DNA from: Candidatus Limiplasma pullicola | GTDB lineage: Bacteria > Bacillota > Clostridia > Christensenellales > Aristaeellaceae | Assembly: GCA_018710985.1 (NCBI GenBank) | Contig: DVIV01000031.1 | Coordinates: 1-50,061 of the forward strand | Direction of reading: 5' to 3' | Length of the DNA stretch: 50,061 bases | Translations under genes and position numbers: made by a program | Notes under the pieces: generated by a model | Databases searched by the model: none | The model's input: only the letters and a program-made list of their open reading frames with translations | What the model was told of the DNA's origin: nothing | In this document: one piece after another, positions 7,569 through 50,044 of the stretch | Layout of the letters: each line of letters opens with the position of its first letter | Position numbering within the stretch: position 1 is the first letter of the stretch

Positions 7569-8966
7569 TCATTCCTCCTCGGTCATAAACAGATTCAGCA
7601 CCCACTGAGCCAGCGTGCGGCCCGCCTGGGTATCGATGTGGGTAGCGACGGCATATTCCGGCAGGCCGTTTTCATTTACCGTCAGGTCGTTCATCAGGAT
7701 ATGGTTGAGGCCGCGGAACGCCTTGAAGCTCATAAAGGTCATGTTGTCGCCGATGGCGTCGGCATAGGCGATGCGCCCCTCGTCCTCAGACACGATGGGG
7801 TCACGCCTGCCCTGACCGATGTAGGTGGGCACCTTGAGCTCCTTGATCAGATCCACGGCATTATAGTGCAGGTCCTCCCAGAAATAATAGCCGTTCCGGC
7901 CGAACAAGGTCAGCGCGCGGGCCTCCTCCTCGCTCACGTTGGACACCTTTTTGATCATCTTTTCAACGGTTTCCTGCGTTTCCTCGCTCAGAGCGGCATA
8001 GGCCTCCGGCTGCGTATCGCGGTACCACTCGATCAGCGTCTTGGGGGTGCTGCCCAGAATGATCATGGCCTTGAAGCTGCCCTCGGACTGGGAGACGATG
8101 CGCGGCGCGATCATCCCGCCAAAGCCCAGGCCCACCAGCACGATGCGCTCCTGATCCACCAGCGGGTTGTCCTTGAGCAGCTGGCAGGCGGCCAGGGCAT
8201 CCTCTATGGCCTCATCGTAGACGGTTTCCGCCTGCGCGTCCGGGTAGGCGTAGGCGCGGCTGTCATAGCGCAGGGAGGCGACGCCCATTTCGCCCAGGGC
8301 GTCTGCCAGATCCTTAAAGAACGTGGTCTGGCCCATGGTGAGGTCATGATCATACGCGCCGAAATCATGCACAAACACGCATACGGGAACAGGCGATTCC
8401 TCGCTGGCCTCCTTGGGCATGGTCAGCACCCCTTCCAGGGCATAGGGCGCCTGCCCCACCGTCACGTCGGTTTCCTCATAGTCCGGCTCCGCGGTCACCT
8501 CGCCGCCCACCAGCATATCGCTGCCGTCGCTGAGCGCCTCTTTTTCCGCGGGCACGAATTCGATGGCCATGATTTCCCAATCGTCCTCTTTGTCCTTATG
8601 GGTAAAATACAGGTCCAGGTCCTGCTTCTCCATGATCAGATGCAGCACGTGTGTTTTGAGCTGGTTTTCCGGTTCCTCAAAGCAGCGATAACTGCCCAGC
8701 TCCACAAAGGCGCCCGTCATCCATTCCAGATCCGTCAACAGGGCTTCGTAGGTTTCCATGGGCATGTAGCGACGAATCTGAAGATCGTAATACCCCCACA
8801 GGCGGCTCATGGACTTGCCTTCGATATAGTCCAGCGCATATTGGCGGACCGTTTCTTCGTTCCATACGGGCACACCGTCCTCCATCTGCTTGGCAGCCAG
8901 TGAACCAGCGGGCAGGCAGGCGAGGATGATCGTGAGCATCAGCGTCAGGGCGATTGCACGTTTCAT
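7569..8966 (-). CDS. Secreted DUF3887/alpha-beta hydrolase-like protein, nucleophile Ser replaced by Gly
   Basis: An exported protein of 465 aa. Residues 1-25 are a signal peptide (KRAIALTLMLTIILA...GSLAAKQ); the Cys at 17 is in a poor lipobox, so either soluble export or a lipoprotein is possible. About 30-135 is a DUF3887-like domain, and about 165-465 is a dienelactone/esterase-type alpha/beta hydrolase with VCVFVHDFGAYDHD, SLRYDSRAY, the acid site GQGRRDPIV and the histidine FRGLNHILM. At the nucleophile elbow, where GxSxGG is expected, the protein reads VGLGFGGM: the codon at 8126-8124 is GGC, so residue 281 is Gly. It is therefore probably not a normal serine hydrolase. It occupies the place where Bacillus has xerC/codV, between trmFO and hslV. 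Confidence 0.8.
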   Translation of the reverse strand: MKRAIALTLMLTIILACLPAGSLAAKQMEDGVPVWNEETVRQYALDYIEGKSMSRLWGYYDLQIRRYMPMETYEALLTDLEWMTGAFVELGSYRCFEEPENQLKTHVLHLIMEKQDLDLYFTHKDKEDDWEIMAIEFVPAEKEALSDGSDMLVGGEVTAEPDYEETDVTVGQAPYALEGVLTMPKEASEESPVPVCVFVHDFGAYDHDLTMGQTTFFKDLADALGEMGVASLRYDSRAYAYPDAQAETVYDEAIEDALAACQLLKDNPLVDQERIVLVGLGFGGMIAPRIVSQSEGSFKAMIILGSTPKTLIEWYRDTQPEAYAALSEETQETVEKMIKKVSNVSEEEARALTLFGRNGYYFWEDLHYNAVDLIKELKVPTYIGQGRRDPIVSEDEGRIAYADAIGDNMTFMSFKAFRGLNHILMNDLTVNENGLPEYAVATHIDTQAGRTLAQWVLNLFMTEEE

Positions 8967-9018
8967 GGTTGTTTCCTCCTCATCGGTGGTGCGTTTAGGA
9001 TAGCATATAAAAGGGGAA

Positions 9019-10347
9019 TCAGGAAAGTGTTTCTTGCTCCATCTGTCCCAAAACCAGGTCCAATTCCAGCAACGCGCGTTCGGAAATCTTCTCGTATCGC
9101 TGCTGCTTGTTTCGAATGCGCTTTTCTCCGGGTCTTGTCTCCAGTGGATCAATCAGGCCGAAGGCGCAGTTCATGGGCTGAAAGCGCTTGTTAGGCGTGG
9201 ACACATAGCGCGCCATGGCGCCGATGGCGGTGCGGCCGCTGAAATGCGGGGGCTCCTTCCCCATCTCGCGATACGCGGCGCAAAGGCCGCACAAAAGGCC
9301 GCTTGCGGCGCTTTCCACATATCCTTCCACGCCGGTGATCTGCCCGGCAAAGGCCAGGCGCGGCTCGCGGATGACGCGGTAGGTATCATCCAAAAAGCCG
9401 GGGCTGCTCAAAAAGGTATTGCGGTGCATCACACCCAGGCGCGCAAACTCGGCATTCTCAAGGCCGGGGATCATGCCGAACACACGCCGCTGCTCGGGAT
9501 AGGTCAGCCGGGTCTGGAAACCCACCAGGTTGTACAACGTGCCGGAGAAGTTGTCCCGGCGAAGCTGTACCACCGCAAACGGCTCGCGGCCCGTGCGCGG
9601 GTCGCGCAGGCCCACGGGTTTGAGCGGGCCGAAGGCCACAGCCATGTCGCCGCGTTTGGCCATGCTCTCGATGGGCATGCAGCCCTCGAACACGGCGCTT
9701 TCCTCAAAGCCGCGCACCGGAACGGTTTCCGCGGTCTGCAGCGCGTGGACAAAGGCCATGTATTCCTCGCGGTTCATGGGGCAGTTGAGGTAATCCGCTC
9801 CGCGATCATACCGCGACATGCAGAACACCTTGTCCATATCCAGGCTTTCGGCGGTAACGATGGGGGCGGCGGCATCGTAGAAGTGCAGCGTTTCCAATCC
9901 TTCCATCCGGCCGATGGCCTCGGAAAGCGCGTCGCTGGTCAGCGGACCGGAGGCGATGATCACCGTGCCCGTCGGCGGGATTTCGGTGACTTCTTCCTCA
10001 TGCACGGTGATGAGCGGATGCTCGCGGATGGCTTTGTCCACCGCCGCGGAAAAGCCGACGCGGTCCACCGCCAGCGCGCCGCCGGCGGGAACGGCATTTT
10101 CGTCTGCCGCGCGCATGATGAGGGAATCCAGCATGCGCATCTCGGCCTTGAGCAGCCCTACGGCGTTTGAGAGGCGGTCGCTGCGCAGGCTGTTGCTGCA
10201 CACCAGCTCGGCCATGGTGTCCAGATGCTGGGCCGGGGTCTTTTGGCGGGGCTTCATCTCGTAAAGATCGACGGGCACGCCGCGCCTGGCGATCTGCCAG
10301 GCGGCTTCACACCCGGCGAGTCCCCCGCCGACAACCTGTATGCTCAT
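9019..10347 (-). CDS. trmFO: Folate-dependent tRNA (uracil-54-C5)-methyltransferase TrmFO
   Basis: Flavoenzyme that makes ribothymidine at position 54 in the T loop of tRNA, using methylene-tetrahydrofolate as carbon donor and FAD for reduction. The FAD-binding start is [18 protein letters not shown], followed by YEMKP, the motif CSNSLRSD (with its conserved Cys) and [14 protein letters not shown], which holds the second conserved Cys. Length 442 aa is normal. The start overlaps the topA stop (TGATG), so translation is coupled. Its position between topA and the hslVU pair is the standard Firmicutes order. Confidence 0.97.
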
Positions 10348-40080: not shown

Positions 40081-40821
40081 ATGCAATATCATCTGGATAC
40101 CATTCCCGTTTGGGAGGCGATGGAGCAAAATACCGCCTGTCCGCTGTGCGCGCTGTATCGCCGCGTGGAAGCGGCGGAGATCGAGCGCAGCCTGGGCGGC
40201 AGCGTCATGGAGCCGGATGCGCGCATCCGCGTCAATGACAAGGGTATCTGCGCGCGCCATCACGGGCAGCTGTTCGCCATGCAAAACCGGCTGGGGCATG
40301 CGCTGCTGGTGGATTCGCACACCAGGGAGCTGCTCAAAAAGCTGGATGGGTTGGAAAAGCGGGCCGCTTCCTGCGAAAAGCGCGGTCTTTTCGGCGGCGG
40401 CGACGGTCTGGAGGGCGTCGCGCGCGAGCTGGAGGCGCTGTGCCGCTCGTGCGTCATCTGCGATGATATCCAGAGCCACATGGAGCGCTACTTTTATACC
40501 TTCCTGCATCTGTGGAAGAATGATTCGGCGTTCCGTGAGAAATGGCAGGCCTCGCGCGGCGTCTGCCTGCCCCATGCGGCGGATCTGCTTGCCCGCGCAC
40601 AAAAGCACCTGGGTGGTTCCGCGCGGCGCGCGTTTGCCGCAGACCTGCTTTCAATGGTCAAAGCAAATCTGGCGCAGGACGAAAAGGATCTGGAATGGTT
40701 CACCCTCAAATTTGACTACCGCAACCAGCAAAAGCCCTGGGGCAACAGCCGGGACGCGCTGGAGCGCACCGTAAACCGCCTGCGCGGCTTTTGCGTGGGA
40801 TCAGGCGAAAAACAGGAATAG
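40081..40821 (+). CDS. DUF6062-family protein
   Basis: 246 aa, cytosolic. It starts MQYHLDTIPVWEAMEQNTAC and has a CPLCALYRRVEAAEIE motif, CARHHGQLFAMQNRLG, RSCVICDDIQSHMERY and RGVCLPHAADLL: several Cys-x2-Cys and Cys-x2-His groups suggest zinc or other metal binding, as in the DUF6062 family, whose function is unknown. GGAGG is 6 bases before the ATG. Alone, with its own terminator. Divergent from the SPOR operon. Confidence 0.85.
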   Translation: MQYHLDTIPVWEAMEQNTACPLCALYRRVEAAEIERSLGGSVMEPDARIRVNDKGICARHHGQLFAMQNRLGHALLVDSHTRELLKKLDGLEKRAASCEKRGLFGGGDGLEGVARELEALCRSCVICDDIQSHMERYFYTFLHLWKNDSAFREKWQASRGVCLPHAADLLARAQKHLGGSARRAFAADLLSMVKANLAQDEKDLEWFTLKFDYRNQQKPWGNSRDALERTVNRLRGFCVGSGEKQE

Positions 40822-40846
40822 AGGGACTTTGCCGATCACGGCATAT

Positions 40847-40885
40847 AAAAAATCCGCGCTTTTCCAAAAAAAGTGCGGATTTTTT
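40847..40885 (+). terminator. Intrinsic terminator after the DUF6062 gene
   Basis: A 17-bp stem (40847-40863 with 40869-40885, one G-T pair) and a 5-base loop; the 3' arm ends in TTTTTT. It separates the DUF6062 gene from the next promoter by about 20 bases. Confidence 0.9.
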
Positions 40886-40906
40886 AATGGTTTATTTGTT
40901 TAACTA

Positions 40907-40935
40907 TTGACATGCGCCGACACGTTTGTTACAAT
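40907..40935 (+). promoter_or_regulatory. Near-consensus promoter of the AtuA-ADP-ribosylglycohydrolase operon
   Basis: Perfect -35 TTGACA (40907-40912), a 17-base spacer and -10 TACAAT (40930-40935). Transcription would start near 40942, about 50 bases before the AtuA start. Confidence 0.9.
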
Positions 40936-40952
40936 GGTCACAGAGAAAAAAA

Positions 40953-40962
40953 TGGTTGACCT
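40953..40962 (+). promoter_or_regulatory. Candidate GntR/FadR-type operator
   Basis: TGGTTGACCT just after the predicted transcription start resembles the TNGT(N)ACNA sites of FadR-family regulators (one mismatch). A regulator of that family is the last gene of the operon. A wider pair GGTCA (40936-40940) and TGACC (40957-40961) also brackets the site. Confidence 0.4.
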
Positions 40963-40994
40963 GATTTGAACATCGCAAGGACCGAGGTGCATTT

Positions 40995-42344
40995 ATGCGT
41001 ACTTGTATCTGTTCCCCCTGCGGCATTCTTGGGTACGGTTTTCCGGAAGAATCCTTCCGGCGGGCGATGGCGGAGAAGCCGGATGCCATTGTGGTGGACG
41101 CGGGTTCGACAGATGCCGGGCCGCACAAGCTGGGTGCAGGCGTAGCCATTGTAAGCCGCATGGCGGCGAAAAAGGACCTGCGGCTGCTGATGCAGGGAGC
41201 GCGGGAGCTCGAAATTCCGCTGGTGATCGGTTCGGCGGGCGGCTCCGGTGCCCGCACCCATACGGAGTGGACCCTGTCCATCATCCGTGAACTGTGTGCT
41301 GAGCTGGACTGGCATCCCAAAACCGCAGTGATCTGGGCCGATATTTCAAACGATGTGATTTTGGATGCGCTGGCACACGGCGCCCTCGAAAAGATGAGTG
41401 AAAACGTGCCGGACCTGACGCCCGAAACGCTGGCCCTGACCAATGGCGTGGTGGCGCAGATGGGCATGGAACCCGTTTTGGATGCGCTGGATGTGGCGCA
41501 GATCATCATCTGCGGACGTGCCTATGATCCGGCGCCCTTTGCGGCCGTGGGCGTAAAGCGCGGCCATGATGCGGGGCTTGCCTACCACCTGGGCAAAATT
41601 CTGGAATGCGGCGCGCTGTGCTGCGAGCCCGGCACCACGAAGGACTGCATGCTGGGCATTTTGGAGGATGACGGCTTTGTGGTCTATCCCGCTGCTCCTT
41701 CGCGCCGCTGCACCAGCGTAAGCGTAGCCGCGCATACCTTCTATGAGAAGGATCATCCCTATCTGCTGCACGGTCCGGGCCTGCTGCTGGATTTAAGCGC
41801 ATGTACCTTTACCGAGCTTGGTGGCGGACGGGTACGGGTGACGGGCAGCCGGCTGATTCCGCAGCCCTATACGCTGAAGCTGGAGGGTGCTAGGCCGGTG
41901 GCATACCGTACCTTTGTGCTGGCGGGCATCCGGGACCCGCTGCTCATCTCCCGTCTGGAGGAGGTGGAACGCGAAGTGGTGCGGGGCGTACACGCCTATT
42001 ATGCGGATGTGCCGCCTGAAAGTTACCAGATTCATTTCTACCACTATGGTATCGACGCGGTCATGGGCACGTGTGAACCCTTTCATGACCTGCCGCATGA
42101 AGTGGGGTTGATGTTTGAGGTGATTGCGCCCGATCAGGAGCTGGCAAATGCCATCTGCGCCACGGTGCGGTCATCTTACCTGCACTTCGGCTACGAGGGG
42201 CGCAAGTCCACCGCCGGCAATCTGGCCTTTCCCTTCGCGCCAAGCGATGTGCTCTTCGGGCCGGTATACGCGTTTTCCGTCTATCACCTGCTGAAGGTTG
42301 AAAACGGCCGGGACCTGTTCCCCATCGAGCTTGCGGAGGTGTGA
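40995..42344 (+). CDS. AtuA-like DUF1446 family protein
   Basis: 449 aa, cytosolic, related to AtuA of acyclic terpene utilisation (DUF1446). Key stretches: GYGFPEESFRRAMAEKPDAI, VVDAGSTDAGPHKLG, GSAGGSGARTHTEWTLSII, ALTNGVVAQMGMEP and CGRAYDPAPFAAVG; the end is typical as well (GRKSTAGNLAFPFAPSDV). The biochemical role of the family is unclear; members are found with DUF4387 in carboxylate and sugar-acid clusters. GAGGTG precedes the ATG at 40995. First gene of the operon and next to a DUF4387 gene. Confidence 0.9.
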   Translation: MRTCICSPCGILGYGFPEESFRRAMAEKPDAIVVDAGSTDAGPHKLGAGVAIVSRMAAKKDLRLLMQGARELEIPLVIGSAGGSGARTHTEWTLSIIRELCAELDWHPKTAVIWADISNDVILDALAHGALEKMSENVPDLTPETLALTNGVVAQMGMEPVLDALDVAQIIICGRAYDPAPFAAVGVKRGHDAGLAYHLGKILECGALCCEPGTTKDCMLGILEDDGFVVYPAAPSRRCTSVSVAAHTFYEKDHPYLLHGPGLLLDLSACTFTELGGGRVRVTGSRLIPQPYTLKLEGARPVAYRTFVLAGIRDPLLISRLEEVEREVVRGVHAYYADVPPESYQIHFYHYGIDAVMGTCEPFHDLPHEVGLMFEVIAPDQELANAICATVRSSYLHFGYEGRKSTAGNLAFPFAPSDVLFGPVYAFSVYHLLKVENGRDLFPIELAEV

Positions 42345-42348
42345 GGGC

Positions 42349-42657
42349 ATGCGGCTATATGAACTGGCGAAGGTGCTTCGCAGCAAGAACAGTGGGCCCT
42401 ATGAAATTACGCTGGACATTCTCTTTGACGACCCTGAAAAGTACCGCCGGGTGGTGGACAGCGGCCGCGTCACGCGCGAAAGCGTAGCGCAGCTCTACCA
42501 CCTTTCGCCGGAGCGCATTTTGGAATTTGTCCGCTATGACGCAGCGCTGGGCATCAAAATCACCTACCTGCGCGACGTGCCCTCCGGCACCGTGGGCGAC
42601 CGAGACGTGTACGGCGCGCAGCAGCATGCGCCGCTGATGGATATTGACATTCCATAA
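42349..42657 (+). CDS. DUF4387 family protein
   Basis: 102 aa. LYELAKVLRSKNSGPYEITL and DILFDDPEKYRRVVDSG are the hallmark of DUF4387, which almost always accompanies AtuA/DUF1446 proteins and is likely its partner. The start at 42349 follows GGAGGTGTG and is 4 bases after the AtuA stop; the frame upstream overlaps AtuA and is not used. No known function. Confidence 0.88.
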   Translation: MRLYELAKVLRSKNSGPYEITLDILFDDPEKYRRVVDSGRVTRESVAQLYHLSPERILEFVRYDAALGIKITYLRDVPSGTVGDRDVYGAQQHAPLMDIDIP

Positions 42658-42673
42658 ACAGGGAGGAATCGGG

Positions 42674-43591
42674 ATGCAACGCACAAACCCCTCGCGCCTG
42701 CAAACCGGCCTGCGCCGTCTTCGGCTGGACTGGGTGCTTTACGCGCTGCTTTTGCCAACGCTGGTCTACTTTATCATCTTCCGGGTCATTCCCATCTGGA
42801 ATATGCGGCTGGCCTTCTACAACTTCAGCGGCCGCAGCGCCTGGACATGGGCAGGGCTCAAGTATTTTGAGATGATGTTCGGTTCGCCCCTGATGAAGGA
42901 GATTCTGCTCAACACACTCATCATCAGCCTGATGAAGTATGTGCTGCTGTTTCCCTTCTTTCCTCTGTTTGCCATCCTGCTGTCCGAAATGCGCCTCAAC
43001 CGCCTGCGCAAATTCACGCAGGTCGTCAGCTACCTGCCGCACTTCCTTTCCTGGGTGGTGATTGCGGGCATCTGGATCAGCTTCCTTTCCAAAACCGGCG
43101 CGGTGAACCAGATTCGTGGTCTCTTTGGCCTTACGCCCATCGACTACATGACCGACAAGGGGTCCATCCGCTGGGTGCTGTTCTTCTCCGAGGGCTGGCG
43201 TTCGCTGGGATGGGATTCCATCATCTACTTTACCACCATTCTCAGCATCAGCCCGTCCCTCTACGAGGCGGCGGACATTGACGGTGCCTCGCGCTTTCAG
43301 ATGGTGCGCTACATCGTGCTGCCCGCGCTGGTCACGCCGATGGTCACGATGTTCATTCTCAACCTGGGCTTTTTCCTCAACGCGGGCTTTGACCAGGTGC
43401 TCAACTTCACCAATGCGGCCGTCAACAGCTCCATTGAGATTCTGGATACCTATATCTACAGCATCGGCATCGGACAGGGCCAGTACTCGCTGGCCACGGC
43501 GGTGGGACTGGTCAAGGGCGTCTTTGGCGTGATGCTGGTGCTCCTCACCCACGTGACCAGCAAGCGCCTCACAGGTACGGGTGTTTGGTAA
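42674..43591 (+). CDS. ABC transporter permease, LplB-type
   Basis: 305-residue permease with six helices, of the LplB/YtcP group of carbohydrate (CUT1-like) importers. WVLYALLLPTLVYFIIFRVI is the first helix; the coupling loop is SPSLYEAADIDGASRFQMVR. GGAGG is 7 bases before the ATG at 42674. Works as a pair with the next permease. Confidence 0.93.
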   Translation: MQRTNPSRLQTGLRRLRLDWVLYALLLPTLVYFIIFRVIPIWNMRLAFYNFSGRSAWTWAGLKYFEMMFGSPLMKEILLNTLIISLMKYVLLFPFFPLFAILLSEMRLNRLRKFTQVVSYLPHFLSWVVIAGIWISFLSKTGAVNQIRGLFGLTPIDYMTDKGSIRWVLFFSEGWRSLGWDSIIYFTTILSISPSLYEAADIDGASRFQMVRYIVLPALVTPMVTMFILNLGFFLNAGFDQVLNFTNAAVNSSIEILDTYIYSIGIGQGQYSLATAVGLVKGVFGVMLVLLTHVTSKRLTGTGVW

Positions 43592-43605
43592 GGGGGGCGG
43601 CAAAG

Positions 43606-44490
43606 ATGAAAAGAAGACGCTTTACCCTCAGCCAGTTGCTTCTGAGCCTCGTGATGATCCTGCTGGCGCTGACCATGGTGATTCCGCTGCTCAACATTCT
43701 GGCCAAGTCCTTCTCTGACCCGGCGCTCTCTCCTTCCATGAGCGGCCTTCAGGTGATTCCGGCGGGCTTTAGCACCGTGAATTACGACATCGTATTTTCC
43801 AACAAAGTCATCCTTCCCACGCTGTGGAATTCGGTGTTCATCACCGTGGTGGGCACGGCCATCAACATTTTGCTGACCACCACTGCCGCCTATGTGCTCA
43901 TTCAACCGGGGCTGATGTTCAAAAAAATCATCATGACTTTCCTGATTGTGATGATGCTCTTTGATCCCGGCCTGGTGCCGGAATATCTGCTGGTCAAGCA
44001 GCTGGGTCTGATTGGCAGCCAGTGGTCGGTCATTCTGGTCACGTCGGTGAACGTGTATTACCTGATCATCATGATGCGCTACTTCCAGGCCGTCCCCACG
44101 GATATCTACGAGGCTGCGCGCATTGACGGCGCGGGACATGTGCGCATGATCTTTTCCATGGTGTTTCCGCTGGCCAAAAGCGGCATCGCCACCATTACCA
44201 TGTTCTACGCCGTGGTGCGCTGGAACGAGTATTTCAAGGCCAGCATCTACCTGACCGAAAAGGCCAAGACCACCCTGCAGGTGATTCTGCGTCAGTTTGT
44301 CGTGCTGGGCGATACCGTATCGCTCATCGGTGCGCAGAACATCATGGACTACAACGAACTGGCCCGCATCGACTATGGTGCGCTGAAGGCGGCCACCATC
44401 GTGATTGCCATTGTGCCCATTCTGCTGCTGTACCCCGTCGTACTCAAGTTCTATACCCGCGACGTGATGGCCGGCAGCGTCAAGGAATGA
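43606..44490 (+). CDS. ABC transporter permease, YtcP/LplC-type
   Basis: 294-residue permease, six helices; coupling loop VPTDIYEAARIDGAGHVRMI. It starts RRRFTLSQLLLSLVMILLAL. AGGGGGG is upstream of the ATG at 43606, 14 bases after the first permease. There is no ATPase gene in this operon, so it must use a shared ATPase encoded elsewhere, as many LplBC-type importers do. Confidence 0.93.
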   Translation: MKRRRFTLSQLLLSLVMILLALTMVIPLLNILAKSFSDPALSPSMSGLQVIPAGFSTVNYDIVFSNKVILPTLWNSVFITVVGTAINILLTTTAAYVLIQPGLMFKKIIMTFLIVMMLFDPGLVPEYLLVKQLGLIGSQWSVILVTSVNVYYLIIMMRYFQAVPTDIYEAARIDGAGHVRMIFSMVFPLAKSGIATITMFYAVVRWNEYFKASIYLTEKAKTTLQVILRQFVVLGDTVSLIGAQNIMDYNELARIDYGALKAATIVIAIVPILLLYPVVLKFYTRDVMAGSVKE

Positions 44491-44560
44491 CACTCCCTCT
44501 GTACCCAATGGCTGCGGATTCAGCCAAACCCATAAATCTATCTTCAAGGAGGAACCCCGA

Positions 44561-46006
44561 ATGAAAAAATGGCTCGCGTTTCTTCTGGCCGCTACCCTGG
44601 TGCTGATGAGCACCGCCGCCGTTGCCGAAATCGGCACTGCGGATGCGCCCGTTCCCGTATCCATTCTCATCAAGGACGTAGCGCCCGATGACGCCGACAC
44701 CATCGCTGTGGTGGATGCGATCGAAAAGGGCATGGCGGCGCAGGGCAACTATGTGGACATCACCATTCTGGAAGCACCTGCCGGCACCTACGTGGAAGTG
44801 GTTCCGCTGGCGTTCCGCACGGGCGAGATCAACCCCGACATCATTTTCTTCCAGGGCAACACTGACACCCCTGTGGTGGCCGAGGGTCTTCTGGAGGACC
44901 TGACCCCCTACGTGGAAGGCAGCACCTACGTGAAGGATCTGCTGGGCGAACATTCCAAGGCGCGTCTGGCCAGCTCTCCCTATCTGCTGTGGCTGGCGCC
45001 GGCCAAGTTCTCTGCTCCCGTCATTCGCGGCGACTTCCTTGACCAGGCTCCCTCCAAGGACGCCTTCCTGGCCGATCCCACCCCCGAAGCCTATGCCACG
45101 ATGCTTAAGGAGCTCATGGACGCCGGCGTGGTCAAGTTTGGCACCACGGTGGACGGCGGCCTGGCCCGTCTGGACAGCATCTTCAACCACGCCTTCGGCG
45201 TCACCGGTACCCTGATGCAGCAGGAAGACGGCACGTACATCTACTCCATGGTCACCGAGCAGGAGAAGAACAAGCTGGCTTTCTATGCCCAGCTCTACGC
45301 TGACGGCATCCTGGACGCCGACTACATCACCAAGGCGTGGGATACCATGGAGCAGGCCTTCTACGAGGGCGACTGCGCGCTGATCGCGGGCACCGCAGGC
45401 GACGTGATTCAGGTCTACAACACCAAGATGGTGCAGACCATGGGCGAGGACGCCGAGCTGGTGGCCCTGCCTCCGGCCAAGGGCATCGGCCAGGCGTTCC
45501 AGTCCATCGACGTGACCAAGGAAGAGCGCGGCTTTGCCATCAACGCCACCATTGAGCAGAACGTGAAGGACGCCGCCTTTGCCATTCTGGACTACATGGC
45601 CAGCCCCGAAGGCCGCATGATCGACAAGCTGGGCGTGGAGGGCGTGCACTACACCGTGGAAGACGGCGTCATCACCTTTACCGACGCCTGGGGCGGCTAC
45701 TGGGCTCGCTTCTTCCCCACCGTGGACGGTCTGCCGGAGGATCTCCAGCTGGCTACCCCCGTACTCAGCACCCCCGCCGCCGACAGCCTTGCGCTGGGCG
45801 CTCAGTACTATTATAATGACGTGAACGTGATCATTCCCGACGAACTGCAGCCCCAGCTGGCCGCCGTCACCTCCATCTACACCGAATACGCCAACGAAAT
45901 CGTGCGCGGTGTGCGCCCCGTGGATGACTTTGCCGAGATGGTGGAGAAGTTCAACGCCGCCGGCGGCGATGCGCTGACCGAATACATCAACTCCGTGCTG
46001 CAATAA
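44561..46006 (+). CDS. ABC transporter solute-binding protein (carbohydrate-like)
   Basis: 481-residue exported binding protein with signal peptide KKWLAFLLAATLVLMSTAAVAE and no lipobox Cys. The mature part resembles LplA/extracellular solute-binding family 1 proteins: VDITILEAPAGTYVEVV, INPDIIFFQGNTDT, LLEDLTPYVEGST, ALIAGTAGDVIQVYNTKM and AFAILDYMASPEGRMI. AAGGAGG is 8 bases before the ATG. A strong terminator follows directly, so it should be the most abundant product of the operon. The ligand is not known; the neighbouring hydrolases suggest a glycoside or nucleoside-like compound. Confidence 0.92.
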   Translation: MKKWLAFLLAATLVLMSTAAVAEIGTADAPVPVSILIKDVAPDDADTIAVVDAIEKGMAAQGNYVDITILEAPAGTYVEVVPLAFRTGEINPDIIFFQGNTDTPVVAEGLLEDLTPYVEGSTYVKDLLGEHSKARLASSPYLLWLAPAKFSAPVIRGDFLDQAPSKDAFLADPTPEAYATMLKELMDAGVVKFGTTVDGGLARLDSIFNHAFGVTGTLMQQEDGTYIYSMVTEQEKNKLAFYAQLYADGILDADYITKAWDTMEQAFYEGDCALIAGTAGDVIQVYNTKMVQTMGEDAELVALPPAKGIGQAFQSIDVTKEERGFAINATIEQNVKDAAFAILDYMASPEGRMIDKLGVEGVHYTVEDGVITFTDAWGGYWARFFPTVDGLPEDLQLATPVLSTPAADSLALGAQYYYNDVNVIIPDELQPQLAAVTSIYTEYANEIVRGVRPVDDFAEMVEKFNAAGGDALTEYINSVLQ

Positions 46007-46022
46007 CCCCTGATGCACCCGA

Positions 46023-46055
46023 GGGGGAACGGGGCCTTCCCCGTTCCCCCTTTTT
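46023..46055 (+). terminator. Strong terminator inside the operon, between binding protein and hydrolase genes
   Basis: Perfect 12-bp stem GGGGGAACGGGG (46023-46034) with 46039-46050, a 4-base loop, then TTTTT (46051-46055). It is followed in only 9 bases by AAGGAGG of the next gene, so it likely causes partial termination and sets a lower level for the hydrolases than for the binding protein. Confidence 0.9.
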
Positions 46056-46071
46056 CAGCAAAGGAGGCTGT

Positions 46072-48168
46072 ATGGCCTTGGAACTCATGGCCTATGTACA
46101 AAAAATCTACGCGGGCTTTCTGGGCATGAATATCGGCATCCGGCTGGGCGCGCCGGTGGAGCCCGCCCTGTGGAGCTACGAACGCATCCGCGACACCTAC
46201 GGCGACATCCGCGGCTATGTGAAGGACTACAAGCACTTTGCCGCCGATGACGACGCCAACGGCCCGGTGTTTTTTCTGCGCGCGCTGGACGATCATGCCG
46301 GTGAGCCTACGCCGCAGGCCGTGGCGGAGGCCTGGCTCAACTATGCGCGCGAGGGCGTGGGGCTGTATTGGTGGGGCGGCTATGGTATCAGCACCGAGCA
46401 CACGGCCTACCTCAATTTGAAAAACGGCGTGCCTGCGCCCCAGTCCGGCAGCATCCGTCAAAACGGCAAAACCCTGGCCGAGCAGATCGGCGGGCAAATT
46501 TTCATCGATACCTGGGGGCTGGTGGCGCCTGCCGACCCGGCGCGGGCAGCCCGTTACGCCGTAGCTGCCGCTTCTGTCAGCCATGACGGCGAAGGCCTCA
46601 ACGGCGCAGCCTTTATCGCTGCATGCATCTCCAGGGCGTTTGAAACGGCCGATATTGACGTGATCATAGATGCCGGCCTTGCACAGATTCCGCAGGAGAG
46701 TCTTTATGCCGCCGTGGTGGAGGCCGTGCGTGCCTTCCATCGCGCCAATCCCGACGACTGGCGCGCCTGCCGTGCGATGCTGGAGGCCGAGTGGGGCTGT
46801 GACCGCTACGGCGGCGTATGCCACATCATACCCAATGCAGGCGTGTGCGCGCTGGCACTGTGCTACGGCGCGGGCGATTTTGCGCGCACTGTGGAGATCG
46901 CCACCATGTGCTCGTGGGATACGGACTGCAACGCGGGCAACGTGGGCACCATTCTGGGCGTGGCGTGCGGCCTGGAAGGCCTGCCCGCGCATTACCGCGC
47001 CCCCATCAACGATGAAATCGTCCTCTCCGGCATTTCCGGCTACCTGAACATACTGGATATTCCCAGCTATGCCTGGGAGCTGGCCCGCTGGGGCTGCCGC
47101 CTGCGCGGCGAGCCCGTGCCGGAGGAGGTTTCCGCTCGCGTGCGCGAGGGCGAGGTGTACTTTGACTTTTCCCTGCCGGGAAGCACGCATGGCCTGCGTT
47201 TTGCCTGTGACGTTCCCACCTGCGCGAGGCTCGAAAGCGGAGCGGTGCTTCTGGACCGCATGGTGCGCGGACAGAAGGCAAAGCTGTTCTACAAGCCTTT
47301 CTGGCGGCGTGCCGATTTCAGCGACGAGCGGTACATGCCTGTGTTTTCGCCCAGGGCCTATCCGGGCCAGCAGGTGGAAATGCATCTGTGCTACGATAAG
47401 CTCGCGGGCGAGATGCTGATTCTCACCCCCTATGTGCGAAACAGCCTGTCGGGTGCGGAGATCGCTCTCTCTCCCACGCTTTTGGATTCGTCCGACGCGG
47501 ATGTGGCGCTGCGCTTCACCCTGCCGCAGGTGGACGGCGGGCTGATCGACGAAATCGGCGTGCGGATCGAATCCGCCGCGCCCGGCAAGTTCGCGCTTTC
47601 CGGCACGCTTCGTCCCACGCTTCTGCGCATCTGGGGTCCGGCCGACTACACCCTTCGTCCCGCGTTGCTGAAAAAGGAATTTGGCAGCGTGATTCCCTTT
47701 TCCCACAACCATGGCGCGTGGGACCTCGAAAGCGGCCGAATGACCCTTCTGTGCGAAAAGGAGGCGCAGGCCTTCACCGGCAGCTACTTCATGCGCGACT
47801 GCCAGCTGGAAGCGCATATCACGCCGCGGAACGGCACGCAGGTGCTGGTCGCCGTGCGCGCCCAGGGTGCGCGCCGGGGATACTATGCGGGCTTTTACGG
47901 CGCCGGGCGCGCTGTCATCGCGGTCATGCACGAGGGCGAAATGCATCTGCTGGCGGAAATGCCGCTGGACTGGGCGTTTGACAGGGAATACACGCTTGCC
48001 CTGCGTGCCCGGGGCCACCGGCTGACCCTGACCGTAGAGGGGAAAACCCTGGAGACCACCGACGCTTCCCTGGCCTACGGCATGGCAGGCTACGCCATGT
48101 TTGCCATGGGCCGAGCCGATTTTGGCGACCTGACCATACGCGAGTTCACATCCGACGAGGAGGAATAA
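46072..48168 (+). CDS. ADP-ribosylglycohydrolase-family protein fused to a C-terminal beta-sandwich region
   Basis: 698 aa. Residues 1-330 are an ADP-ribosylglycohydrolase (ARH) fold: the metal motif DDDAN at 59-63 and WDTDCNAGNVG with Asp283, Asp285 and Asn287. The entry motif reads GFLGMNIGIRLGAPVEP in place of the GLAIGDxxG seen in the next gene. Residues about 350-698 look like beta-rich domains, the last third (WDLESGRMTLLCEK..., GYYAGFYGAGRAVI, LALRARGHRLTLTVEGKTLE) resembling a laminin G/3-keto-disaccharide hydrolase-like sugar-binding fold. There is no signal peptide. AAGGAGG is 4-5 bases before the ATG. Probably cleaves an N- or O-glycosidic bond of the imported compound; true substrate unknown. 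Confidence 0.87.
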   Translation: MALELMAYVQKIYAGFLGMNIGIRLGAPVEPALWSYERIRDTYGDIRGYVKDYKHFAADDDANGPVFFLRALDDHAGEPTPQAVAEAWLNYAREGVGLYWWGGYGISTEHTAYLNLKNGVPAPQSGSIRQNGKTLAEQIGGQIFIDTWGLVAPADPARAARYAVAAASVSHDGEGLNGAAFIAACISRAFETADIDVIIDAGLAQIPQESLYAAVVEAVRAFHRANPDDWRACRAMLEAEWGCDRYGGVCHIIPNAGVCALALCYGAGDFARTVEIATMCSWDTDCNAGNVGTILGVACGLEGLPAHYRAPINDEIVLSGISGYLNILDIPSYAWELARWGCRLRGEPVPEEVSARVREGEVYFDFSLPGSTHGLRFACDVPTCARLESGAVLLDRMVRGQKAKLFYKPFWRRADFSDERYMPVFSPRAYPGQQVEMHLCYDKLAGEMLILTPYVRNSLSGAEIALSPTLLDSSDADVALRFTLPQVDGGLIDEIGVRIESAAPGKFALSGTLRPTLLRIWGPADYTLRPALLKKEFGSVIPFSHNHGAWDLESGRMTLLCEKEAQAFTGSYFMRDCQLEAHITPRNGTQVLVAVRAQGARRGYYAGFYGAGRAVIAVMHEGEMHLLAEMPLDWAFDREYTLALRARGHRLTLTVEGKTLETTDASLAYGMAGYAMFAMGRADFGDLTIREFTSDEEE

Positions 48169-48171
48169 GGC

Positions 48172-49167
48172 ATGCTGACCCGACAGGAGCTATTGCAAAA
48201 CCCGGACCTTTACCGGGACAAGGCGCGCGGCGCGCTGATCGGCCTGGCCATTGGCGACAGCTTCGGCGACGCTTCGCGCAAACCAGAAAACCAGATGGCT
48301 TACGGCTTTACCACGGATTTCAACAAGGGCGCCAGCTGGTCCACGGACGATACGGAATTTGCCATGCTGACTGCGCAGATTCTGATTGAGTCCGGCGGAA
48401 AGCCCACCAGCGACTGCGTGGTGGACGCATGGCTCAAGCATGTGGCCACGCAGGATGAGCTCAAGCGTGGCGGTGCGAGCGAATTTGAAGCCTCCCGAAA
48501 TTTGCGAAAGGGCTTGCGTCCCCCGCTGTCGGGCAGGTACAATGCATATGGGCATTCGGACGGCGCAGCCATGCGCATCAGCCCCGTGGGCGTGCTGTGC
48601 GCGGGCGATATCGACCGCGCCATCGCCATGGCGGAAATTGACGCTTCCATCAGCCACGACCGCGAGGGCATCTGGGGCGCGCAGTCCGTGGCCGCCGCCG
48701 TAGCCGCCGCCATGGCGGATGCGGAGATTGGCGAGATTCTTGCCGCCGCCATGAAGCCCATACCCCAGGATACCTGGTTTGCCTATGCCATGCAACGTGC
48801 GCTGGACATTGTGGACGAGGCGGAGGGGAATCTCCTGCAAGCCTGGATGCCCCTGCACGACGAGCTGTGGACCAGCTACAAGGCGGCCGTAAGCGAAGCT
48901 GTCGCCGAGGCGTTCGGCGTGCTGAAGCTGATGCACGGCGATTTCCGCACGGGCGTAACCTGCGCCGGCAATTTCGGGCGCGACGCCGACACCATCGGCG
49001 CCATCTGCGGCGCGATTCTGGGCGCCAAATACGGCTATCACACCATTCCGCCCGTCTGGGCGGAAAAACCCCGCTACCCCACCGGTACCTGCCTTCTGTT
49101 TACCAAAGGCATGGATATCCGGGCGGTTGCCGACCGGCTGACGGATGTGGCCATCGCCCTGGGGTGA
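48172..49167 (+). CDS. ADP-ribosylglycohydrolase-family protein, single domain
   Basis: 331 aa, cytosolic. GALIGLAIGDSFGDA starts the fold; metal ligands are STDDT with Asp59 and Asp60, and GRDADTIGAICGAILG with Asp271 and Asp273. ISHDREGIWGAQSVAAAVAA is also typical. GAGGAGG lies in the end of the preceding gene, whose stop is 3 bases before the ATG. It is a clearly different ARH subfamily from the protein upstream, so the two are not a recent duplication but probably act on related steps. Confidence 0.92.
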   Translation: MLTRQELLQNPDLYRDKARGALIGLAIGDSFGDASRKPENQMAYGFTTDFNKGASWSTDDTEFAMLTAQILIESGGKPTSDCVVDAWLKHVATQDELKRGGASEFEASRNLRKGLRPPLSGRYNAYGHSDGAAMRISPVGVLCAGDIDRAIAMAEIDASISHDREGIWGAQSVAAAVAAAMADAEIGEILAAAMKPIPQDTWFAYAMQRALDIVDEAEGNLLQAWMPLHDELWTSYKAAVSEAVAEAFGVLKLMHGDFRTGVTCAGNFGRDADTIGAICGAILGAKYGYHTIPPVWAEKPRYPTGTCLLFTKGMDIRAVADRLTDVAIALG

Positions 49168-49198
49168 GCGCGCAAGCACGTTGAGGAGGAACGGTTTG

Positions 49199-49882
49199 AT
49201 GATGAACTTCCACCCCATTCAGGATCAACGCCTGTCCGACAGAATTGCACAGCAGTTTACCCAGGCCATGCAGGACGGCGAGCTTACCGTGGGCACGCGG
49301 CTTCCGCCGGAGGCCCAGCTGGCCGACCAGCTGGGCGTAAGCCGGGGCATCCTGCGTGAGGCGCTGACCATTCTGGAGGCGCGAGGATACCTGACCCGCA
49401 CGCCAAAGGGCGGCACGTTCATCAAATCGGTGGTGGGCGATTCCTTCGCCCGTTCCCTTTCCGAAGAGCTGCGCCATGCCACCTACCGCGATCTGCTGGA
49501 ATTTCGGGAGGTCATGGAATGCCGCGCTGTGCAGAACATCATTCGCACGGCCAGTGATGCGCAGATTGACGCGCTCTACGGCCTGCTTGACGAGCCGCCG
49601 GAGGAACCGGAAGCTGCTTCCCAGCTGGACCGGTATTTTCATTTCCAGCTGGCAAAGCTGAGCGGAAATCGCCTGTTCAGCTCCTTCATCGATACCTACT
49701 ACGAGCTGATCCGCGAGATCAAGATGCGCAGCATGCGCACCGAAAGCCGTCGCGCCGCCGTAATCCGCGAACACCGCGCCATTCTGGACGCCCTGCGTGC
49801 GCGCGACGAAAAAGCGGCGCAGGACAGGGTGCGCAGCCATCTGGACGCGGTGCGCGCCTCGCTGGAAAAAAGTGACCGGTAA
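49199..49882 (+). CDS. GntR-family transcriptional regulator, FadR subgroup (FCD domain)
   Basis: 227 aa. The N-terminal winged helix has LPPEAQLADQLGVSRGILRE and LTILEARGYLTRTPKGGTF, the GntR recognition region. The C-terminal FCD domain (about 90-220) is all helical with FREVMECRAV, FHFQLAKLSGNRLF and EHRAILDALRARDEKAA, including the His residues that often bind a metal. AGGAGG precedes the ATG at 49199. Last gene of the operon; likely autorepressor acting at the promoter at 40907. Confidence 0.92.
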   Translation: MMNFHPIQDQRLSDRIAQQFTQAMQDGELTVGTRLPPEAQLADQLGVSRGILREALTILEARGYLTRTPKGGTFIKSVVGDSFARSLSEELRHATYRDLLEFREVMECRAVQNIIRTASDAQIDALYGLLDEPPEEPEAASQLDRYFHFQLAKLSGNRLFSSFIDTYYELIREIKMRSMRTESRRAAVIREHRAILDALRARDEKAAQDRVRSHLDAVRASLEKSDR

Positions 49883-49942: not shown

Positions 49943-50044
49943 AAACCTTTCGGGAGGTTTGGAGGGCCCGCAAGCCCTCCAAAGTGAATTCGTATCGCCC
50001 GGCTTTGCCGGGCGGGCGGGGAGTTTGCGCCCCTGGGCGCAAAC
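49943..50044. repeat. Cluster of four perfect hairpins
   Basis: In order: AAACCT/AGGTTT (49943-49960), TTTGGAGGGC/GCCCTCCAAA (49958-49983), CGCCCGGC/GCCGGGCG (49996-50014) and GTTTGCGCCC/GGGCGCAAAC (50023-50044). The first two share three T residues and so compete. No coding frame is credible here. It looks like a dispersed intergenic repeat or a multi-hairpin terminator. Confidence 0.75.

Follow-up and report, generated by a model that had tools for sequence, protein, structure and literature searches.

A conserved operon joins ADP-ribosylglycohydrolase-family enzymes and a sugar-type importer to a citramalate lyase-like pair: a candidate route for the breakdown of ribosylated hydroxy acids

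We analysed the window, a stretch of 50,061 nucleotides that makes up the whole of contig DVIV01000031.1 of Candidatus Limiplasma pullicola, and describe here a set of eight genes that all lie on its + strand (40995-49882): AtuA and DUF4387, three components of an ABC importer, two ADP-ribosylglycohydrolase (ARH)-family proteins that we call ARH1 and ARH2, and a GntR/FCD regulator, 179 bases past which the contig ends. Pfam families could be assigned to these open reading frames, bearing out the seven metabolic genes and one regulator of the initial annotation (Table 1). The gaps between the genes are, in operon order, 4, 16, 14, 70, 65, 3 and 31 bases, a GGAGG-like site stands ahead of most of the starts, and gaps this short (3-70 bases), downstream of a hairpin and then a promoter-like site matching the consensus at 11 of 12 positions, fit a single operon. 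As for the single near-consensus promoter first claimed, the 11/12 site and its place after the hairpin stand, but promoter-like sites of at least 9/12 are no more numerous than in shuffled sequence (3 found versus 2.9), so it is the quality and position of this site that back the call.

Table 1. Features of the operon and its flanks in the window.
Feature	Position	Strand	Basis
DUF6062 gene (PF19538, E 1.7e-73), directly upstream of operon	40081-40821		Pfam
Terminator-like hairpin before operon, after DUF6062 gene	40846..40886	+	sequence scan
Sigma-70-like promoter TTGACA-17-TACAAT	40907..40935	+	11/12 consensus match alone; TG before second hexamer
AtuA (PF07287, E 1.4e-21), homologue of citramalate lyase subunit A (CmlA)	40995..42344	+	Pfam, PDB match, tree
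DUF4387 (PF14330, E 2e-37), homologue of citramalate lyase subunit B (CmlB)	42349..42657	+	Pfam, PDB match
LplB-like ABC permease	42674..43591	+	PF00528 (BPD_transp_1)
LplC-like ABC permease	43606..44490	+	PF00528 (BPD_transp_1)
Solute-binding protein SBP_bac_1, weakly like AlgQ1/AlgQ2 (best E 0.00056)	44561..46006	+	
ARH1, ADP-ribosylglycohydrolase-family, 698 amino acids, variant motifs	46072..48168	+	PF03747
ARH2, ADP-ribosylglycohydrolase-family, 331 amino acids, canonical-looking motifs	48172..49167	+	PF03747
GntR/FCD regulator	49199..49882	+	Pfam GntR + FCD
Terminator-like hairpin after regulator	50023..50044	+	sequence scan

Evaluating the first two gene products against solved structures, we found that a profile of nine AtuA proteins matches the PDB entries 9erq/9evf, named "Citramalate lyase, subunit A (cmlA)", at E 7e-191, that the window AtuA by itself scores 441 bits against 9erq_A, and that the window DUF4387 scores 100 bits against 9erq_B (subunit B). 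Given these subunit names the pair has an assigned reaction, and the initial view that DUF1446/DUF4387 lack a clear reaction outside terpene use is outdated; as in CmlAB, both subunits are present in the window and encoded together. In the literature searched no paper named DUF4387 and, among the matches listed, none dealt with CmlAB, 9erq or 9evf, judged by title and abstract. In its account of the methylaspartate pathway, PMC4682846 places DUF1446, there of unknown function, downstream of methylaspartate ammonia-lyase in some species, and citrate-lyase-type genes as a putative citramalate lyase in the pathway clusters of other species. The clusters of that account share DUF1446 with the window operon, but the latter lacks glutamate mutase, ammonia-lyase and mesaconase, and we therefore rejected glutamate breakdown via methylaspartate as its role.

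Both ARH proteins score well above the PF03747 cut-off of 26.2 bits (ARH1 184 bits, E 6.5e-54; ARH2 168.8 bits, E 2.7e-49). The canonical metal-site motifs of ARH proteins such as DraG and ARH3 are TDD and DxDT, and the ARH enzymes that have been characterised cleave at the anomeric carbon of ribose. ARH2, which matches the MJ1187, DraG and ARH3 chains, has T58-D59-D60 and D271/D273/T274 conserved across all 21 aligned rows (alignment rows were hand-chosen throughout, with 69 of 102 for ARH1, 40 of 90 for AtuA and 21 of 95 for ARH2). ARH1 shares PF03747 with the same three proteins but differs in having D for T, C for T and a long C-terminal part. For both enzymes the gene context argues for small molecules over ADP-ribosylated proteins as substrates. 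That context includes the parts of a CUT1-type importer of the LplABC kind, namely two permeases and a binding protein; no importer ATPase was found in the operon, the rest of the genome not having been searched for one, and a shared ATPase encoded elsewhere is usual for importers of the LplABC/CUT1 class.

Turning to conservation, we surveyed the neighbourhoods of the best 80 of 554 ARH1 relatives in named genomes, to which the locus counts below refer unless another sample is named. Because the mechanical calling of open reading frames put some calls on the wrong strand in G+C-rich loci, AtuA, DUF4387, CitE-type, CitF, CoA-transferase III and MmgE genes were re-sought by tblastn in all 80 loci, the other genes being taken from the open reading frames. 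AtuA occurs in 55 of the loci and DUF4387 in the same 55, LplB and LplC in 69 each, the solute-binding protein in 75, and an ARH2-type gene in 71 (30 at 45% identity or more to the window ARH2, 41 with a distant ARH only); LplB, LplC, the binding protein and some ARH2 stand together in 52 of the 55 AtuA-carrying loci. Carriers include Paenibacillus, Cohnella, Bacillus, Clostridium, Alkaliphilus and Lacrimispora among the Bacillota, and Sphaerochaeta and other spirochaetes among the Spirochaetota. The neighbourhood is thus kept in related genomes, and conservation this deep strengthens the shared catabolic role initially proposed, with import, glycosidic or N-ribosyl cleavage and an AtuA/DUF4387 step.

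Searches at successive taxonomic levels revealed how AtuA and ARH1 are associated. In the window's family, AtuA was matched in 24 of 300 genomes (25 places): all 14 places at 62-100% identity (the window, L040 and 12 further regions) have ARH1, ARH2 and importer genes close by, and all eight at 48-50% lie near methylaspartate ammonia-lyase, none of them with ARH1, with an ARH-family gene several kilobases off in one such region (L226). Among the three weaker places, L054 has TctA/TctC and lacks ARH1. Within the window's order, DUF4387 was found in 8 and an ARH1 match in 37 of 297 genomes, and a phylum sample of 348 genomes gave an ARH1 match at E <=1e-50 in 29. Six regions of that sample were retrieved and the strongest matches read; the two top matches besides the window's own (1119 and 996 bits) lie near AtuA, DUF4387, LplB and LplC, and the next five (503-643 bits, including the second copy in the window genome) lack AtuA over the stretch read, two of these sitting close to a contig end. 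A class-level search matched 33 of 391 genomes, and the 20 regions read comprised seven with ammonia-lyase, ten with a fumarase-family gene, one with ARH1 and two with none of these. A further type of AtuA/DUF4387 cluster (L205, L209-L212) carries M20-family and class I fumarase-family genes and a weakly matched AraC-like gene.

The clusters are also mosaic, since L040 and five others (L215, L216, L217, L219 and L220) have an AtuA at 69-73% identity but an ARH1 at only 39-42%. The window genome holds one DUF4387 gene and three ARH-family genes, including a second ARH1-type gene (G000:C14:3335-5314, L049) that is 35% identical and has other neighbours and no AtuA. Elsewhere, AtuA is split over two open reading frames in a Sphaerochaeta metagenome-assembled genome (L100:3939-5302), and two phage-integrase-family genes lie directly beside AtuA/DUF4387 in L201 (6238-9373).

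The 25 loci without AtuA yielded the strongest argument for the chemistry of the pathway, as 11 of them hold another lyase system. Seven carry CitE and CitF (L068, L069, L073, L077, L093, L110 and L133), with the NCBIfam cut-off passed by CitF in L077, L093 and L110 and by CitE in L077 only, and with a CitD-CitE fusion below the cut-offs in L133; the other CitE/CitF assignments come from tblastn. CoA-transferase III occurs with a CitE-like lyase in L117, L131 and L134, and the transferase alone in L138. For L117, the nearest solved relative of the lyase is malyl-CoA/beta-methylmalyl-CoA lyase, and those of the transferase are CaiB/BaiF and succinate-hydroxymethylglutarate CoA-transferase. With tblastn run for both in all 80 loci, AtuA and an alternative lyase were never found together (probability of zero overlap 4e-7, relatedness of the loci ignored), and lyase type changes at least five times on a tree of ARH1 (91 rows, open reading frames of 640-760 amino acids). 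Such repeated replacement by unrelated lyases of similar chemistry argues that an acid of the citramalate/citrate/malate type is cleaved in the pathway. The L273 cluster, whose AtuA is nearer to the ammonia-lyase type (43%) than to the ARH type (38%), looks like a further lyase recruitment. Candidate replacements that we rejected were an AraC-family gene and a spore photoproduct lyase in L097, and a 514-amino-acid gene in L090 considered as CitF; L090 is counted as lacking a lyase because this gene matches DNA polymerase IV. An alginate-lyase-family gene is present in the neighbourhood of L136.

To place the sugar, we evaluated the kinases that accompany ARH1, finding a ribokinase-family kinase within 9 kb of it in 53 of the 80 loci. 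Sixteen ARH1-linked kinases were scanned, ten from AtuA clusters, others from clusters with another lyase (L073, L093, L117) or with no lyase seen (L042, L129, L276), and the ribokinase family TIGR02152 was the best NCBIfam family for all 16 and above its cut-off in ten. Upstream of AtuA in L081 (738-2693), a ribokinase is fused to a LacI part that, among regulators, matches RbsR best; a kinase-matching open reading frame of similar length and place occurs at L080:923-2839. In L129, L130 and L132, ARH1 stands with a nucleoside hydrolase, a Bmp/PnrA binding protein and a ribokinase (by family scan in L129, by blastp in L130 and L132). These three clusters are closely similar across Lacrimispora, Hungatella and a metagenome-assembled genome named Paenibacillaceae, a likeness that may reflect either recent transfer or a misnamed assembly. 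Outside its operon the window genome encodes ribokinases on C53 (above the cut-off) and C42 (below it, 51% identical to the L093 kinase), and a ribokinase-like frame with a TAG stop lies in two pieces at G000:C41:7050-7909. Taken with the cut that ARH enzymes make at the ribose anomeric carbon, the kinase family makes ribose the likeliest sugar. The initial annotation had remarked that the operon lacks a kinase, CoA ligase and dehydrogenase, and a family scan of the operon genes indeed gave no match to these families; what needs amending is the "missing" kinase, which is ribokinase-family and close by in the 53 relatives, and the other two enzymes would be dispensable were the lyase to yield acetate and a 2-oxoacid.

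Bringing these lines together, we propose that the operon probably, though far from certainly, serves to catabolise a ribosyl conjugate, its acid part being a 3-hydroxy di- or tricarboxylic acid like citramalate, citrate or malate. We computed the gene content, its conservation, the family of the kinase, the exchange of lyases and the separate AtuA clade; the reactions, the order of the steps and the compound we infer from homology and context. The LplB/LplC/binding-protein importer, with a shared ATPase, would bring the conjugate into the cell, where ARH1 and ARH2 would release the ribose by hydrolysis at its anomeric carbon; a ribokinase, encoded near ARH1 in many relatives and elsewhere in the window genome, would phosphorylate the freed ribose, and AtuA and DUF4387, as a two-subunit lyase of the CmlAB type, would split the acid into acetate and a 2-oxoacid. 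Ribose 5-phosphate, acetate and the 2-oxoacid would thus be the end products, and control would lie with the FCD regulator, or with LacI in some relatives. We file this not as a citramalate lyase operon but as a newly combined route of a familiar type, in which a glycoside is imported and cleaved and an acid lyase takes part. The yegTUV genes of Escherichia coli, in the description given by PMC10819704, likewise combine a transporter, an ARH-family protein and a sugar kinase under a GntR regulator; there, however, the transporter is of the MFS type, no lyase is included and the functions of the genes are also unsettled, and the window operon for its part lacks the kinase of such a module.

Several observations weigh against this proposal. 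To our knowledge there is no natural ribosyl-citrate, -citramalate or -malate compound, and six names of this type did not occur in the literature searched. A kinase is absent within 9 kb in 27 of the 80 ARH1 loci, 14 of which have AtuA, and the window operon itself is without one. The motif residues of ARH1 are changed, reading D59-D60-D61 and D283-T284-D285-C286 in 69 of 69 aligned rows. Neither kind of lyase was found in 14 of the 80 loci, eight of them cut by contig ends; among the 66 uncut loci (those with 6.5 kb or more ahead of ARH1 and 1.5 kb or more behind it), six are without a lyase (L090, L097, L129, L130, L132 and L136). An HpcH hit in L054, alongside AtuA and DUF4387 and without ARH1, means that two kinds of lyase can coexist outside ARH1 loci, and in the window's genus the operon is patchy, AtuA being present in 1 of 17 listed genomes.

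The identity of the acid meets a further difficulty of the same kind in the phylogeny of AtuA, for which we built a quick tree of open reading frames of 430-480 amino acids (63 of 91 rows, 31 of the 59 ARH-linked). Here the ARH-linked proteins form one starred clade (99), which holds the window AtuA, and the solved CmlA (9erq_A) falls elsewhere, grouping on a long branch with ammonia-lyase-linked AtuA at 92, not starred. When 59 ARH-linked AtuA were compared with 16 ammonia-lyase-linked ones, 20 positions proved at least 90% conserved in each group yet different between them, including K45 for Y, S54 for D and K216 for S, with K45 and K216 present in 59 of 59 ARH-linked rows. A separate clade with this many differing positions suggests that the acid of the ARH-linked clade may differ from citramalate, and K45/K216 would fit a more acidic substrate, for example citrate. 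The ARH-linked clade also includes an AtuA with no ARH nearby (L207:9176-12622). Next to it are an RraA-like aldolase and a dehydrogenase-like protein (DUF1932), and an SBP_bac_5 binding protein is encoded at 7571-9157; these neighbours may hint at the acid.

Among the alternatives, the one that survives best, although we consider it unlikely, is breakdown of a glycoside or furanoside that carries no ribosyl group but, for example, a fructosyl or another pentofuranosyl one; the kinase would then act on a different sugar, and the aglycone would be the substrate of the lyase. Six of the 16 scanned kinases fall below the ribokinase cut-off, the C-terminal stretch of ARH1 bears a weak likeness to a levanase module (E 1.2e-4), the binding protein weakly resembles the alginate-binding AlgQ, and some of the 80 loci carry accessory genes, either esterase-like (one seed type in 7 loci, another in 2) or HAD (5 loci). 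Yet the other ten kinases pass the cut-off, the kinase fusion of L081 carries an RbsR-like regulator part, and ARH chemistry on record is ribosyl. Another accessory gene, in L040, encodes a metallo-beta-lactamase-fold protein whose sole NCBIfam match, PhnP, is below the cut-off.

Less probable again is that the lyase has no part in the use of the sugar compound and takes as its substrate free citrate or citramalate, a nutrient that is co-transported or co-regulated. The six uncut loci without a lyase would suit such independence, as would L042 and L276, where ARH1 and a ribokinase were seen and a lyase was not; the recurrent exchange of the lyase for unrelated ones near ARH1 speaks for a coupled role, however, and a family scan of the operon genes found no citrate carrier. 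We give lower credence still to a non-catabolic, DraG-like role in which ARH1, ARH2 or both reverse protein ADP-ribosylation and so regulate the lyase. The canonical-looking ARH2 motifs and the matches of ARH2 to DraG and ARH3 chains are what one would then expect, but no ADP-ribosyltransferase family occurs among the operon genes (the rest of the genome was not searched), a sugar importer and ribokinase accompany the ARH genes, and in three loci in which we found no lyase (L129, L130 and L132) the companions of ARH1 are a nucleoside hydrolase and an importer for nucleosides. Acyclic terpene use we rejected as having next to no probability, as the Pfam name is all that backs it and the window AtuA is close to citramalate lyase A in an operon without acyl-CoA genes.

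Returning to catabolism of a ribosyl conjugate, we raise more tentatively the broader possibility that a widespread pathway, as yet undescribed, feeds on acids of the citrate, citramalate or malate sort in ribosylated form, such that many "ADP-ribosylglycohydrolases" might be catabolic ribosidases and not protein de-modifiers. If true, there would be a common natural ribosyl-acid compound that has so far gone unrecognised, and the gene set, being widespread in soil and gut bacteria, would point to a yet unnamed food source. Such a route would join two puzzles, that of ARH-family proteins beside sugar importers and that of AtuA/DUF4387 outside glutamate fermentation, and the repeated swap of lyases in one conserved cluster narrows the chemistry without the compound in hand. 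One binding protein and two enzymes, taken from cultured relatives such as Paenibacillus or Clostridium, should be enough to test the substrate directly.

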